Positions 13,741 through 28,290 of a stretch of 64,000 bases of DNA are shown here, piece after piece; positions within the stretch are counted from its first letter, which is position 1; each line of letters starts with the position of its first letter. Source of the stretch: Planctomycetaceae bacterium. GTDB taxonomy: Bacteria > Planctomycetota > Phycisphaerae > Phycisphaerales > SM1A02. Both the position numbers and the translations under genes were made by a program. The stretch covers positions 124,001-188,000 of the forward strand of contig CANLHK010000007.1 of assembly GCA_947490615.1 (NCBI GenBank), read 5' to 3'. The notes beneath the pieces are model-generated. The model worked only from the letters and a program-made list of their open reading frames with translations, did not search any database and was not told the DNA's origin.

Positions 13741-14049
13741 CTATCCGCCGCGCGCGGCGCGGAAGAGAACAGGGAGACTCGCGCCACCAAGGAGGACCAT
13801 GCGACGGTCGACCTGCGACTCAACACCGTAGACCAACAGCGTCTCGCCGCGGTTGTCGAGCACATAGAGCACTTCGACAGGCGCAGCATCTGAGCCTTGA
13901 CCCGTCGACGCGGTGAGCACGGTGAAACCGCCGACACCCATCGAGGCGGTGCCCGCGTGGGCCGCGGGATGCAGGCGTCCTGCTTCGACGATGGTCAGCG
14001 CGGCAATGGCGATGGCACTGGTGGCGAGGATGGCGTGTGGGAGTCGCAT
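13741..14049 (-). CDS. Small exported protein, paralogue of the next gene upstream
   Basis: 102 residues with an N-terminal signal-like hydrophobic segment (residues 5-20) followed by Ala/Gly-rich sequence. The core EVLYVLDNRGETLLVYGVES matches VVYVVDETTQEVLAVQFDPQ in the neighbouring 100-residue protein, so the two are paralogues with a short beta-strand-like V.YV.D...E.L.V module. No family is recognised. It lies between its paralogue and deoC, all on the minus strand. Its function is unknown; export to the periplasm or surface is inferred from the signal. Confidence 0.65.
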   Translation of the reverse strand: MRLPHAILATSAIAIAALTIVEAGRLHPAAHAGTASMGVGGFTVLTASTGQGSDAAPVEVLYVLDNRGETLLVYGVESQVDRRMVLLGGASLPVLFRAARGG

Positions 14050-14079
14050 GGAGGTGAGGAAGGAGGTGTGGCGCGTGGC

Positions 14080-14382
14080 TCAGTTTGAGCGCGGGCGATT
14101 GATCTCGCCCGCATCGACGGCGAGGTTTCGGAAACCGAGACCCTTGAGCTGCTTACTTTGCGGATCGAACTGCACCGCGAGGACTTCTTGCGTCGTCTCG
14201 TCGACGACATAGACGACCTGTGCTTCCATGCCCGCGACGCGTCCTGCGGCGGCGGTGTAGGTGCTGCGCGCGCGCACGGCCTGGGCCTGCGCGGGAGCGG
14301 AGAGTTCCACTGCTGCAAGCGCCGTCAGCGCGAGAGCGTTGGCAGCGAGGAGAATCCGAAGGGCACTCGGGCGTCGTTTCAT
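14080..14382 (-). CDS. Small exported protein of unknown function
   Basis: 100 residues. It begins MKRRPSALRILLAANALALT and has a signal peptide likely cleaved after the APAQAQA region near residue 35. The mature part contains the V.YVVDETTQEVLAVQFD module shared with the downstream 102-residue protein, about 30 bases away. No metal-binding or catalytic motif is visible. The start is supported by an AGGAG-like sequence on the minus strand just upstream (GACAAGGAGTCTGCC). The two genes probably arose by duplication. Confidence 0.68.
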   Translation of the reverse strand: MKRRPSALRILLAANALALTALAAVELSAPAQAQAVRARSTYTAAAGRVAGMEAQVVYVVDETTQEVLAVQFDPQSKQLKGLGFRNLAVDAGEINRPRSN

Positions 14383-22927: not shown

Positions 22928-24094
22928 ATGCCGATCACCACCGCCTACGAAGCCAAAATCGAACACATCTCGATTCTCGACGCGAAGGGAAACTTCGACG
23001 AGAAGCTCGGCGGCGCCGCAGGCAAGCTGATCATCCCTGACGCAGATCTCGTGCAGCTCTACAGCGCGATGGTCTCGTGTCGCCAACTCGATGAAGTGGC
23101 GTTTCGTCTGCAGCGCTCAGGCCGCATGGGAACCTATCCGCAGAACATGGGGCAAGAGGCGACGAGCCTTGGTGCGGCCTATGTGCTGCGCAAGGACGAC
23201 TGGATGGTCACTTGCTATCGCGAGAACTGCGGACTGTTCTGGCGCGGTGTTCCTAAGGAAGCGATCCTGCTGCACTGGATGGGCGACGAGCGCGGCAACG
23301 CGATGCCCAAGCCGCACTGGGTTACGCCGATCTATGTGCCACTGGGAACGCAGATGCTCCACGCTGCGGGTCTCACGCTTGCTGCGAAGTACCGCGGCGA
23401 AGACCGCATCGCCTGCACCTTCTTTGGTGACGGCGCCTCAAGCGAAGGCGACTTTCACGAGGCGTGCAATTTCGCTGCGAGCCTGCACATTCCTGTGGTC
23501 TTCGTCTGCCAGAACAACTTCTGGGCGATCTCCACACCGAGCACGATCAACAGCGCCGCGTCAACCTTCGCGCAGCGCGGACTTTCCTACGGGATGCCGT
23601 GCCTCCAGTGTGATGGCAACGATCTCTTCGCCACCGTCTACACCATGCGCAAGGCTGTGGAGCATGCGCGCACCACAGGAACACCGTGCTTTGTGGAGAT
23701 GGTGACCTATCGACTTGGCGATCACACGACCGCCGACGACGCCAAGCGTTACCGCGATCAGTCCGAGGTCGACGCCTGGAAGGCGCGCGATCCGATCATT
23801 CGGGTGCGCCAGTTCATGACGAAGCGCAAGTTGTGGGACGACGGCAAGGAGGCCGCGCTGGCTGAACGCGTTGAGCGCGAGAACGCCGAAGCGGTCGCGC
23901 GTGCGGAAGGCATCGCGTTGCCAGGGCGCAGCGACTTCTTCGACTCGATGTACGCGGAGACTCCGCAGGACCTTCTCATCCAGCGCGACACCATGCAGAC
24001 GCATTCGCTCGGGCAGGACCCTTCGCAACTTCCCGTCGAGGCGCAGGAACGCGCCGCGCAACTTTCGGCCGCCGCTGCTGCAACCCATCACTAA
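22928..24094 (+). CDS. 2-oxo acid dehydrogenase E1 component, alpha subunit
   Basis: 388 residues. It contains the thiamine-diphosphate motif from GDG (167-169) to NN (196-197) within FFGDGASSEGDFHEACNFAA and the VCQNN end. Other E1-alpha blocks are R.GRMGTYPQNMGQEA (64-78), the phosphorylation-loop-like YRLGDHTTADDAKRYR and a C-terminal helix. The closest remembered pattern is the Gram-positive PdhA/BkdA group, so pyruvate or branched-chain 2-oxo acids are both possible substrates. With the E1 beta gene 62 bases downstream it decarboxylates the substrate and acylates the lipoyl group of E2 (the gene at 15.3-16.7 kb is a candidate partner). Confidence 0.93.
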   Translation: MPITTAYEAKIEHISILDAKGNFDEKLGGAAGKLIIPDADLVQLYSAMVSCRQLDEVAFRLQRSGRMGTYPQNMGQEATSLGAAYVLRKDDWMVTCYRENCGLFWRGVPKEAILLHWMGDERGNAMPKPHWVTPIYVPLGTQMLHAAGLTLAAKYRGEDRIACTFFGDGASSEGDFHEACNFAASLHIPVVFVCQNNFWAISTPSTINSAASTFAQRGLSYGMPCLQCDGNDLFATVYTMRKAVEHARTTGTPCFVEMVTYRLGDHTTADDAKRYRDQSEVDAWKARDPIIRVRQFMTKRKLWDDGKEAALAERVERENAEAVARAEGIALPGRSDFFDSMYAETPQDLLIQRDTMQTHSLGQDPSQLPVEAQERAAQLSAAAAATHH

Positions 24095-24156
24095 GCCGTC
24101 TTGACTAAGACTTTCCTTGCTGAGCACTCCCTGACTCTTCGGTCTGGATCACGCAC

Positions 24157-25125
24157 ATGGCCAATCTCAATCTCGTTCAAGCCATCAATCTCGCGCTCAT
24201 CCAGGAGATGGAGAAGAACCACGACATCGTGTTGCTTGGCGAAGACATCGGCATCAACGGCGGTGTTTTTCGCGTGACCGAAGGTTTGCAGAAGCGCTTC
24301 GGCGGCGCGCGCGTCTTCGACACGCCGCTCGCGGAGTCGGGCATCATCGGCCTCTCCATTGGCATGGCGATGGGCGGACTCCATCCTGTGCCCGAGATTC
24401 AGTTCGAAGGATTCCTCGGTCCTGCGTACGACCAGATTTGCTCGCATGCTGCGCGCATGCGCAGTCGAACCCGCGGCGCCTTCACTGTGCCGATGACGAT
24501 TCGCATTCCTGTGGGCGGCGGAATTCACGCGCCCGAACTTCACAGCGACTCACCTGAAGCGATCTACGCGCACACGCCTGGACTCAAGGTCGTCATGCCG
24601 AGTTCGCCGTATGACGCGAAGGGACTGCTGGTCACCGCGTTGCGCGAACCCGATCCTGTGTTGTTCTTCGAGCCCAAGCGGATCTATCGCGCGTTTCGCG
24701 AAGAGGTCCCCGAGGACGAGTACACGCTGCCGCTGGGCAAGGCGCGCACCGTGTGCGAAGGAACCGATCTCACCATCGTGAGTTGGGGCGCGAGCGTCGT
24801 GCAGTGCATGCAGGCGATCGAGAAGTCGGAGCAGTCGATTGAGCTGATCGACTTGCGCACCATCTATCCGTTTGACATGGACGCCGTGGCCGCGAGCGTT
24901 TCGAAGACCGGCCGCTGCGTCGTCGTCCACGAAGCGCCGCTGACCTGTGGATTTGGCAGCGAGATCGCGGCGCGCATCATGGAGCGCTGCTTCCTTCAAC
25001 TCGAAGCTCCGGTGCAGCGCGTCGCAGGGTTCGACACCACGATGCCCTACTACAAGCTCGAGCTCGACTACCTGCCCGATGCCGCTCGCGTCACCCGCGC
25101 GATTCACGACTGCATGGCGTACTGA
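24157..25125 (+). CDS. 2-oxo acid dehydrogenase E1 component, beta subunit
   Basis: 322 residues, normal length. Typical blocks are LNLVQAINLALIQEMEKN, LLGEDIGINGGVFRVTEGL, DTPLAESGIIGLSIGMAMGG, PVGGGIHAPELHSDSPEAI and a C-terminal SKTGRCVVVHEAPLTCGFGSE. Glu in LGEDIG is the conserved residue that contacts the thiamine pyrimidine ring. It forms the alpha2beta2 E1 with the upstream gene. No E2 or E3 gene follows; the next gene downstream, after about 230 bases, belongs to the HTH/helical-repeat pair. Confidence 0.95.
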   Translation: MANLNLVQAINLALIQEMEKNHDIVLLGEDIGINGGVFRVTEGLQKRFGGARVFDTPLAESGIIGLSIGMAMGGLHPVPEIQFEGFLGPAYDQICSHAARMRSRTRGAFTVPMTIRIPVGGGIHAPELHSDSPEAIYAHTPGLKVVMPSSPYDAKGLLVTALREPDPVLFFEPKRIYRAFREEVPEDEYTLPLGKARTVCEGTDLTIVSWGASVVQCMQAIEKSEQSIELIDLRTIYPFDMDAVAASVSKTGRCVVVHEAPLTCGFGSEIAARIMERCFLQLEAPVQRVAGFDTTMPYYKLELDYLPDAARVTRAIHDCMAY

Positions 25126-25358: not shown

Positions 25359-26531
25359 ATGCACATCGCGCATGAGGAATTCCGCTTCATCGATGATCCC
25401 GCCCAGCGGGTGCTCTGCGGCAGGATTCTTCAGCGCACCCAGTCGATGTTCGGTTTGCTCGTGGCGACCTGTGATTATTCCTATCGCGCCGCGTCGAGAC
25501 GGGCCGAGGTGGATCCGCGTTCACTTGATGAGTTGCGCAGTGTGCCGACGCTTGGCGTCGTGGCGCGCATTGCTGCTGCGATTGGTCTTGAGGCAGGATC
25601 AGCGGTCGCCGCACTCGCATCGAGCGCGGGTGAGCAGATCGATGGCGTTGCGTTGCGTCTCGAAGCGGCCGAAGCGGATCTCGACGATGACGCCCCCGCA
25701 CTCGAGCGCGTGAGCAGTGCGCTGCACGCCAACGCGCAGCACCCGACGGAGCTCGCTCTTGCGCATCTCATCACTGCTCGCGCGTTCGTGGCGCGTGGTG
25801 AGTTCGAAGCAGCCGACACGGCGGTGGAGCTCGCGTTCGAGTTTGGTCTCGCAGAGAGTGATCATGCGCTGGCAGGTCAACTCGCCGAGGCGATGCACTA
25901 CGAGTCATTCCTTGGGACGCCGTGGCAAGGCGGACGCGCGTCGCGCGCCGTCGAGTCGTCTTGTGCGGCGCGACTCCTCTCGCTGATGAAGCACGCGCCG
26001 AGGTCGGAGCGCTCGTCGGTGGCGAGTCAGAGACTTCGTTGTTGGCAACTCGCCGAGCGGCTGCTCGCAGAACACGGCCCTGGGAAAGGCAGCATCGAGG
26101 CGTTGCGCGTGGAGCTCGACAAAGTGATTGAACACGGGAGCGGCGGCCGCGCGCTGGCTTGGGCTGCGTCCATCGCTGCCATCACGGCCTTGCGATTGCG
26201 CGCCCGAAGGATGGCGGAGGGCGGCGACGATGGCGAGACGGCCATGTCGCCGTCCACACGCGTGCTGTCGCTCATCGTTGCCGCTGAACTGGCGCTCGAG
26301 GAAGGACTTCGACTCGGAGCGTCGGCGGAACGCTCCGCAGTTCTTGCGCGAGCGACCCGAGTGGCGCTGTGCGAGTGGTCGACGCGGTTCGCGTTGAATG
26401 AAATCGACCCAAACTCCATGGACGAAGCGGACTTAGAGGAGCTTGTTCGTGCGTGCTTGCGCTTTCCAGCGGCCAAACTTTCACCAATGATCGCCGCAAT
26501 CACGCGCGCCAAAGAGGTGAACTTTGTTTGA
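25359..26531 (+). CDS. HTH (XRE-like) plus helical-repeat protein, first of a pair
   Basis: 390 residues from the ATG at 25359 (GGAG 11 bases upstream). Residues about 30-85 look like a divergent XRE-type helix-turn-helix: a helix SMFGLLVATCDYSYRAASRR, a turn, then PTLGVVARIAAAIGLEAG, matching in order and spacing the HTH of the next gene. The remaining 300 residues are Ala/Leu/Glu-rich helices of about 34-residue periodicity resembling degenerate TPR-like repeats (for example HPTELALAHLITARAFVARG, then GEFEAADTAVELAFEFGLAE). No signal peptide or membrane segment is present. It is probably a cytosolic regulator. It is followed after 117 bases by its relative on the same strand. Family not recognised. 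Confidence 0.6.
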   Translation: MHIAHEEFRFIDDPAQRVLCGRILQRTQSMFGLLVATCDYSYRAASRRAEVDPRSLDELRSVPTLGVVARIAAAIGLEAGSAVAALASSAGEQIDGVALRLEAAEADLDDDAPALERVSSALHANAQHPTELALAHLITARAFVARGEFEAADTAVELAFEFGLAESDHALAGQLAEAMHYESFLGTPWQGGRASRAVESSCAARLLSLMKHAPRSERSSVASQRLRCWQLAERLLAEHGPGKGSIEALRVELDKVIEHGSGGRALAWAASIAAITALRLRARRMAEGGDDGETAMSPSTRVLSLIVAAELALEEGLRLGASAERSAVLARATRVALCEWSTRFALNEIDPNSMDEADLEELVRACLRFPAAKLSPMIAAITRAKEVNFV

Positions 26532-26648
26532 CGAACATCGGAAATTGATCTTGATTTACGCGGCGCTTCGCGTGAAGTCCCACAGTCACCCGTTTCCGCC
26601 AACAGGATGTACGACCCCATCCCCCAGCGGCAACAGATCGGAGGATCC

Positions 26649-27932
26649 ATGCTGACAACAGAGATTGGTGGATTTGAGGCGGCGCGTGAAGCGCTCGCCC
26701 GCGAGAGGCTTGAAGAACTGCAAGCGCTCGCACGAACGTATCGCAACTGGACCGTCAAGGAACTCGCGCACGCGCTCGGGCGACAGCCAGGGCGACTCGT
26801 CCCAGAGAGCGGCATGCCCAAGATCGACCTCGTTGTCGGTCTGGCCAAAGCCCTCGACTGGCCCGTCGAGGCCGTGGTGGATCACTTGATGAAGCCACCT
26901 GCGGGACCGAGGAAGGTCGTGCATCCGAAGGACACGGCTGCGGACTACGCGCGGCTCTACAACGAGAGTGCCGCAAAAAGACTCGAGCGTGATTACTTCG
27001 AGGCGATTCGACTTGCGGTGCGCGCGGGTGTCGTGGCGGATACGGGGAATCGTCGCGCGGGCGCCCTGGTGCTCGAGTCGGAGGCGCACGAGTCCACTGG
27101 ATCGTATGTTGAGGCAGTTCGCTGTCTGCGCGAGGCCATCCGTATGGAAGGCATTGCGATTGAGTGGCGGATCTACTGCGACTCAAAGCTCGGGAATCTT
27201 CTATTCATGCAGGGGCTGACCACGCAGTCGCTCGGTATCGCCTCGTCGGTGTTGGAGTATGCGCAGAACCTTCCGAGCTCATTGCTCGTTAGGACTTCGC
27301 AGATGCTCGGGCACTGGACGCGAGGACATGTGCTGCGATCCGCAGTCCCGTTGCGGCACACCGAGTCGTGGCGCTCACTTGCCGCTTCTGCTCGCGAGGA
27401 TTTCTGCAAGGTCAAGAGTTTGTGCATGGCACTCGTCGTGGAGACCGACGGTAACCCGCTCTACTTCGGTTCCTTCTCAGGAGTCATTGACCCGATGTTG
27501 CTCGAGCTTGACGCGATCTGCGATGAGGAGCAGGCGGAGTTCGCGGTTCAAGCGCTCCTGGCAATTCTGCGCGAAGGCGGATCAGCAGACTCCGGAATCG
27601 GCGAGCGCAAAGCATGGGCGGCGGTTGCCGTGGCGAACACCGTGCGGCGCGTTGTGCCTGACGAGATGCAGCGGCGAGGGATCCTTGATGTTGCGTCCGC
27701 GGCGCTGCGTGCGCACGCAGTTGCGACCTCGAACTGGTACTTCGCCCACAAGCACCTAGAGCTCGATGCGGAGCGTCGGCGTAATCTGGTTGGTCACGGG
27801 ACGGCCTCCCGAGCGCTCGATGCACTCGAAGCGAAGTTGGTGGCCGGCGTCCTCGGTCAGGTTCCAGCGGCGCGTGAGCACGCCGCGGAGTTCTTCGCCC
27901 TCTACGGGTCAGGGGAAGGGGTGCGCGCATGA
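26649..27932 (+). CDS. HTH (XRE-like) plus TPR-like regulator, second of a pair
   Basis: 427 residues from the ATG at 26649, which has GGAGG five bases upstream; the frame opens earlier at 26607 without one. Residues about 20-80 form an XRE-like DNA-binding domain: LARTYRNWTVKELAHALGRQ, then MPKIDLVVGLAKALDWPVEA. After a short Pro/Lys linker come helical repeats with TPR flavour (ARLYNESAAKRLERDYFEA, LVLESEAHESTGSYVEAVRC, LREAIRMEGIAIEWRIYCDS). The architecture, DNA-binding head plus TPR-like body, resembles peptide-sensing regulators of the RRNPP type, though similarity by family is not established. Its stop overlaps the start of a 100-residue exported-protein gene, so the two are translated together. 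Confidence 0.65.
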   Translation: MLTTEIGGFEAAREALARERLEELQALARTYRNWTVKELAHALGRQPGRLVPESGMPKIDLVVGLAKALDWPVEAVVDHLMKPPAGPRKVVHPKDTAADYARLYNESAAKRLERDYFEAIRLAVRAGVVADTGNRRAGALVLESEAHESTGSYVEAVRCLREAIRMEGIAIEWRIYCDSKLGNLLFMQGLTTQSLGIASSVLEYAQNLPSSLLVRTSQMLGHWTRGHVLRSAVPLRHTESWRSLAASAREDFCKVKSLCMALVVETDGNPLYFGSFSGVIDPMLLELDAICDEEQAEFAVQALLAILREGGSADSGIGERKAWAAVAVANTVRRVVPDEMQRRGILDVASAALRAHAVATSNWYFAHKHLELDAERRRNLVGHGTASRALDALEAKLVAGVLGQVPAAREHAAEFFALYGSGEGVRA

Positions 27933-28231
27933 GGTTCACCTACACCAGCGTGTTCTTGATCGCCGCATCGGCCTTCGTGCTCCCACTGCAATCGGGCGCC
28001 GAATCACCAACGGTTCCGCCTCCCTCTGACACCCCACCAGCCGAAGTCTCCGTCCAGAAGTGGATCCGTGAGATCTACGCCTACCAAGTGCAGCCTGGCT
28101 ACGAAGAGTGGCTTGGGAGTGGTGACGGACCAGCCGACAGCTTGGTTTCGTTCCAGCTCTATCTCACGCTGCATCCTCTTCGACCACGGCTCAACACCGA
28201 GTTCGTGATCCTCTACCTCCAAGGGCATTGA
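27929..28231 (+). CDS. Small exported protein overlapping the HTH/TPR gene
   Basis: 100 residues, starting in an ATGA overlap with the upstream regulator. The first 24 residues (MRFTYTSVFLIAASAFVLPL, then QSGA) are a good signal peptide. The mature part is about 76 residues: a Pro/Thr-rich head (SPTVPPPSDTPPAE), an aromatic middle (WIREIYAYQVQPGYEEWLG) and a hydrophobic end (FVILYLQGH). No cysteine is present in the mature region. No family is recognised. The strong terminator 26 bases downstream makes it the last gene of the unit. Coupling to a DNA-binding/TPR-like protein suggests a signal, ligand or immunity-type partner; that is inference. Confidence 0.62.
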   Translation: MRFTYTSVFLIAASAFVLPLQSGAESPTVPPPSDTPPAEVSVQKWIREIYAYQVQPGYEEWLGSGDGPADSLVSFQLYLTLHPLRPRLNTEFVILYLQGH

Positions 28232-28257
28232 GCCTTTGGAGTCCTGCGAAATCCACA

Positions 28258-28290
28258 CGGGCCGCCCTGCATCAGGGGCGGCCCGTTTTC
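28258..28290 (+). terminator. Rho-independent terminator after the exported-protein gene
   Basis: A perfect 10-bp stem, CGGGCCGCCC (28258-28267) with GGGCGGCCCG (28276-28285), an 8-base loop and a TTTTCGTGTT tail. It ends the regulator-exported protein unit and faces the convergent tag gene. Confidence 0.85.

Follow-up and report, generated by a model that had tools for sequence, protein, structure and literature searches.

The window, the 64,000-nucleotide stretch of planctomycete DNA analysed here, carries on its forward strand three consecutive genes, which we call R1 (25359-26531, 390 aa), R2 (26649-27932, 427 aa) and S (27929-28231, 100 aa). They are preceded on the same strand by pdhA and pdhB (22928-25125), and the gene beyond S is convergent; genes outside the ORF list of the window were called by a small custom script, so that their start sites are approximate. 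The longest ORF covering R2 begins at 26607, and the true start, judged from the GGAGG in front of it, is probably 26649. The initial annotation had described a second regulator that overlaps, by ATGA, a 100-residue gene with a signal peptide, and R2 and S are arranged in this way, the signal-like start of S being assigned by inspection. The strong terminator that it placed behind S is likewise found, as a terminator-like hairpin of 12 pairs at 28257-28286 on the forward strand. Since 2.8 terminator-like sites would be expected in the region and the hairpin scan gave two, the evidence for this terminator is the strength of the hairpin and not the number of sites. Elsewhere in the window, on the minus strand at 13741-14382, two adjoining genes encode proteins of about 100 aa with signal-like starts.

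R1 and R2 align over nearly their full length in a profile comparison (hhalign 97.4%, E 1.4e-11), and the HTH/helical-repeat design that the initial annotation had seen in both neighbours is, as read from their sequences, homology between paralogues. R1 is the fast-evolving, genus-specific member of the pair, and its HTH-like head has diverged. The AlphaFold2 model of R2, built on a 42-row alignment (mean pLDDT 86.9, pTM 0.76), consists of four N-terminal helices with HTH-like spacing followed by about seven helical hairpins. We assign the XRE-like HTH region to about residues 20-82 (26706-26894) from the modelled helices and conserved columns, and the TPR-like hairpins to residues 97-420 (26937-27908) from the model, profile and structure comparison. 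Both the HTH and the TPR bundle, on which the initial reading depended, could therefore be found in the R2 model, and the same build of R1 would follow from its profile homology to R2. The R-family profile matches consensus TPR proteins with an E-value of 4.5e-17, and the TPR models of Pfam match R weakly.

The search for structural neighbours of the R2 model placed PlcR at rank 3 and Rap at rank 4 in Foldseek (best E 1.4e-3), and a second aligner returned RapH (Z 18.9 over 228 residues, 3.5 A), Rap Phi3T (Z 17.3), NprR (Z 16.4) and AimR (Z 14.6). TPR proteins unrelated to these receptors scored equally or better, namely TSK/BRU1 (Z 19.5), APC/C (Z 19.0) and MalT domain III (Z 18.2), so that the fold of R2 fits the RRNPP receptors while kinship with them is unproven. 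At the sequence level, the R-family profile met PlcR at E 0.38, and no RRNPP model was matched by R in Pfam or NCBIfam among the families listed (25 of 35 in one search). The comparison with RRNPP profiles proposed along with the initial annotation thus came out in two ways, with PlcR, Rap, NprR and AimR as structural neighbours and with no RRNPP family among the matches listed. None of R1, R2 and S could be assigned to a useful family by searches of Pfam, NCBIfam, PHROGs and PADLOC.

S begins with a signal-peptide-like stretch (residues 1-24, 27929-28000) that by inspection ends at SGA, with E as the following residue, and the protein is probably exported. Directly past this presumed cleavage site lies a conserved Pro-rich stretch (28001-28027), in which P30-P32 are invariant in 12 rows. 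In the structure model the first 40 residues are unstructured and are followed by three helices at residues 44-99 (28058-28225, pLDDT mostly above 90), which suggests a folded three-helix domain and not a typical short propeptide. A PDB fold search with this model gave nothing better than E 2.4, and S had no NCBIfam match and hence no PEP-CTERM domain over the cut-off. A kinship of S of this genus with the Trp-rich group of S proteins was considered and dropped, as profile comparison gave no relation (hhalign 6.0%, 12 columns).

Among 61 related genomes, R2 has matches in 33, of which 12 other genomes of the genus have strong ones (56-74% identity) and one more has a partial match at a contig end. 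R1 was matched in 15 of the 61, every one within the genus, and S in 14 at E<=0.1. One of these S matches, in G018 (E 0.086), we regard as chance, and the remaining 13 come from those genomes of the genus whose R2 is complete. The synteny of the small gene, which the initial annotation had made a point to check, was complete, with S next downstream of R2 in 13/13 genus genomes that have a complete R2, the window included. One genome (G003) has two S copies in tandem. Of the 11 loci with an S called by the script, 8 show the ATGA overlap between R2 and S. For one close pair, dN/dS was 0.04 for R2, 0.28 for R1 and 0.25 for S, meaning that in this pair R2 is strongly constrained and R1 and S are much less so. 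A tandem duplication of S at L037:5247-5926 has a dN/dS of about 0.30 (dN 0.18, dS 0.59).

Genomes of the genus also hold a second R copy, R2' (L046-L057 and L183, the latter being G000:C12), which stands directly before a cation-efflux gene (PF01545). The match to R2' of the window genome spans model positions 82-416 only, and its HTH may be lost or mis-called. In a locus of another genus (L214), R is followed by an S with SSMQEE and then by the same efflux gene, so that S was probably lost beside R2' in the genus of the window.

The region in front of R was also inspected for shared elements. A common operator upstream of R was considered and rejected, as no pentamer dyad was present in more than 4 of 92 upstream regions, where shuffling gave up to 3. 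The best dyad, TTTCCGCGGAAA, is a perfect palindrome in four close relatives only (L107, L111, L113 and L115), 83 nt before R. In the genus loci L033-L045, a TTGAC-N5-GTCAA dyad lies about 90 nt before R2 (window about 26528-26648); it is perfect in 3 of 14 loci, has at most one mismatch in 6 of 14 (about 0.04 expected) and is degenerate in the window. On its sequence it may be an operator or a part of the C-terminal coding region of R1. In genus relatives, a hairpin with a variable stem and a GGGTGG-like loop was seen by eye 60-20 nt before the R2 start, in front of CAGATCGGAG; a consensus fold did not recover this hairpin. A conserved RNA fold in the R1-R2 gap is not claimed, given that RNAalifold returned four pairs, one of them with a double change.

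Beyond the genus, a 27-row profile found the R family in 166 of 400 genomes of the order, and 294 genomes drawn from the phylum gave three matches, all belonging to the order. One scan yielded 127 loci, and the best 80 of them, ranked by likeness to a query from a motif-bearing clade, are the named loci. In these 80 loci the gene after R mostly encodes a small protein with a signal-like start (by hydropathy score), and in 73 of the 80 it contains the motif H[TSN]xQ[DEG], whereas shuffling the residues of these 80 ORFs gives 0.30 motif-bearing ORFs expected. Among 590 other genes of these loci, 4 bear it. The seven loci in which it is missing are L095, L127, L143, L148, L149, L152 and L155, of which L149 ends 133 bases after R. 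The R-S pair lies near lpdA in 25 and near gmk in 30 of the named loci (L102-L155; best 80 of 127), and in the genus of the window pdhB adjoins the triad in 8 of 13 relatives' loci and an R1 fragment in a ninth genome. A functional link of R-S to pyruvate dehydrogenase was entertained and set aside, the proximity to pdhB, lpdA and gmk being treated as a position shared by descent.

The motif expression was chosen after these data had been inspected. Of the 46 loci collected earliest, 11 carry the motif; 21 of the 46 are loci of the genus, none of them with the motif, and several of the others are the first members of tandem R pairs. Because the expression had been fixed post hoc, 40 further loci were fetched from genomes not yet examined for the motif, and it was present in 26 of these, or in 21 of 35 after removal of five loci already seen, with five of the 21 being close relatives of one another (L208-L212). 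Among the misses of this second set, H[IVT]D[IV]P was noticed by eye at the same place in five loci and DNEGP in three, and ten of 80 loci were judged by eye to be better explained by other words. Some other clades seem, by eye, to have replaced the motif by a short word of their own.

In many S proteins the motif sits just behind the signal peptide whatever their length, and its carriers differ in build, some being disordered with a C-terminal anchor, some short and Trp-rich and some longer than 300 aa. Ten loci have two copies (eight distinct). Since HTNQD is written in 12 DNA spellings across 15 named loci and HTVQE in 13 spellings across 19, it is the amino acids and not the DNA that are kept. 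The DNA pattern for HTNQD had 66 matches, spread over 40 of 121 family genomes, while a reversed control had 8. No fewer than 24 of the 66 lie within 300 bp downstream of R, and in 20 regions fetched the matches away from R looked for the most part out of frame or fell in unrelated genes. In this order, a presumably DNA-binding R usually stands just upstream of a small, probably exported protein with a short, group-specific motif, and this pairing may be an unrecognised peptide-sensing system.

Motif spelling (77 rows) requires 19 changes on a tree of 117 R proteins, whereas 200 shuffles needed 50.4 on average and never fewer than 45. Spelling therefore agrees with the descent of R, and common inheritance alone could give the same agreement. 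Within R, the first (A) helices of the hairpins are more conserved than the B-helices (2.08 vs 1.67, p 4.5e-4, where neighbouring columns are non-independent), and we take the A-helix face as the inner one. Conserved polar positions include N141, N180, N183, R230, E286, E319 and N330. R2 of the window genus has lost N141, W324, N351, K352, E367 and mostly N180, and it keeps N183, R230, E286, E319 and mostly N330; this loss of groove residues coincides with the loss of the motif from its S. Nevertheless, R2' keeps the residues with no motif-bearing neighbour, so that groove conservation is not tied to the adjacent S.

The S of the window lacks H[TSN]xQ[DEG], and the invariant PPP past its presumed cleavage site is the sole candidate word that its sequence suggests for this genus. 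The window holds an unusual, fast-changing version of the R-S pairing, and peptide sensing is weakest here, because S has no motif and is predicted to form three helices, and R2 has lost groove residues. Accordingly, the peptide-sensing idea of the initial annotation keeps its layout and fold and gains support from the motif in the wider R family, while the predicted folded domain of the window S and the equal or better scores of unrelated TPR proteins tell against it; it is the relatives beyond the window that make the stronger case for sensing of a short peptide.

As a tentative reading, held at somewhat under even chances, we suggest that R and S are one regulatory cassette in which the TPR groove of R would respond, by RRNPP-like logic, to a short motif in the exported protein S. 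The support is of several kinds, namely homology, predicted folds, linkage, motif enrichment and the agreement of motif and R tree; export, binding, re-import, DNA binding and regulation are the steps that we infer. R would be a cytoplasmic DNA-binding protein with an XRE-like HTH, its groove would sense a short linear motif of the S encoded directly behind it, and in most sampled loci this would be H[TSN]xQ[DEG], just past the signal peptide. By the likeliest route, S would be exported, a fragment would be cut out and re-imported, and the DNA binding of R would change. Re-import in RRNPP style is possible, as oligopeptide-binding proteins (PF00496) occur in 59 of 61 relatives, the window genome included, which is a statement of presence alone; one genome with R and two HSNQD copies (G023, 88% complete) has no PF00496 match. 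In the window genus the cassette would have been duplicated beside pdhAB as R1-R2-S, S would have swapped the motif for a Pro-rich stretch and a three-helix domain, and R2 would have lost part of its groove. Why a receptor-like HTH/TPR protein should be linked to an exported neighbour whose short word is specific to the clade would be explained most simply if R reads this word. In its boldest form, which we consider unlikely, peptide signalling would have arisen across this planctomycete order apart from RRNPP, with receptor clades that read their own five-residue words (HTNQD, HTVQE, HSMQE, HTGQG and others) excised from the exported neighbour, and with the window genus having switched to a new word and doubled its receptor.

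Some S proteins look anchored at the cell surface (PEP-CTERM) or exceed 300 aa, which would be odd for a propeptide, and it is conceivable, if on the unlikely side, that R controls its own operon with S as an exported surface product, the motif acting outside the cell in binding, anchoring or processing and never being met by R. The PEP-CTERM-like C-termini of several S proteins, with TIGR02595 over the cut-off in two of the ten scanned (L062 and L096), fit such autogenous control, as do the predicted folded domain of the window S and the R2' copies that keep their groove with no motif-bearing neighbour. It is at odds with a motif shared by S proteins of very different build and with a spelling that follows the R tree, even though plain common descent could explain the latter. 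The tight translational linkage of R and S through ATGA, and the placing of the motif shortly after the signal peptide in many S proteins, short or long, would also suit an R that captures the S precursor in the cytoplasm before its export and is freed when export is efficient. No peptide would return and neither protease nor importer would be necessary; the doubled motifs of some S proteins, however, fit a released ligand at least equally well, and we regard this sensing of export status as distinctly improbable.

The fast evolution of R1 and S in step in the one pair compared raised the question whether the window triad has nothing to do with sensing and forms a toxin-immunity, defence or mobile module. 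This seems very improbable, as there is no PADLOC or PHROGs match at E<=0.1 and the chromosomal place beside pdhB is stable. If R does read the motif of S, planctomycetes would have an intracellular peptide-sensing system of their own, and natural variants of both receptor and word would be at hand for testing how specificity evolves. Even otherwise, the close association of this uncharacterised regulator family with an exported protein whose word differs between clades makes the family a clear target for study.

The closest known systems are those of the RRNPP type (Rap-Phr, PlcR-PapR, NprR-NprX, AimR-AimP), described for Firmicutes and their mobile elements. No RRNPP system in planctomycetes, or anything comparable to R-S, was found in the open-access literature searched. 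The five computational criteria of RRNPP_detector are a propeptide of 10-100 aa, Sec secretion, a receptor of 250-500 aa, TPRs and gene adjacency (PMC10075063). The window locus fits this description, its Sec signal being a putative one assigned by inspection, with R2 and R1 inside the receptor range and S at the exact upper limit for propeptides, while S proteins of the family are often longer than 100 aa. In single-peptide RRNPP propeptides, the mature pheromone is at the C-terminus (PMC9765709). The conserved stretch of S is instead behind the signal peptide, and the C-terminal half of the window S is predicted to be helical; this position lowers the case for RRNPP kinship and does not exclude it, because some RRNPPA propeptides have internal copies.

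Two other groups share parts of the picture. Several S proteins of the family end, as PEP-CTERM/exosortase proteins do, in a PxPG-hydrophobic-Arg tail, but the window S and many others are without it, and such a tail would leave the motif and the linkage to R unexplained. MalT-like TPR regulators have a TPR solenoid with a structural score comparable to those of RRNPP receptors. MalT, however, is not known to have the layout of an N-terminal XRE-like HTH with an adjacent exported partner. RRNPP and R-S differ in that the former belongs to Firmicutes and their phages and the latter to a planctomycete lineage, that R has no sequence match beyond generic TPR, that the motif is not C-terminal, and that the partners are often 100-200 aa and in some cases anchored or folded, as predicted. 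We do not file R-S as RRNPP, because its conserved motif lies away from the C-terminus and the searches gave no kinship in sequence. Both nonetheless have a receptor of 250-500 aa with a TPR body and, in most RRNPP subfamilies, an N-terminal HTH, both have a small secreted partner encoded adjacent (export being predicted for R-S), and in both some partners repeat a short motif and some receptors have no partner, so that R-S may, by analogy, work like RRNPP.
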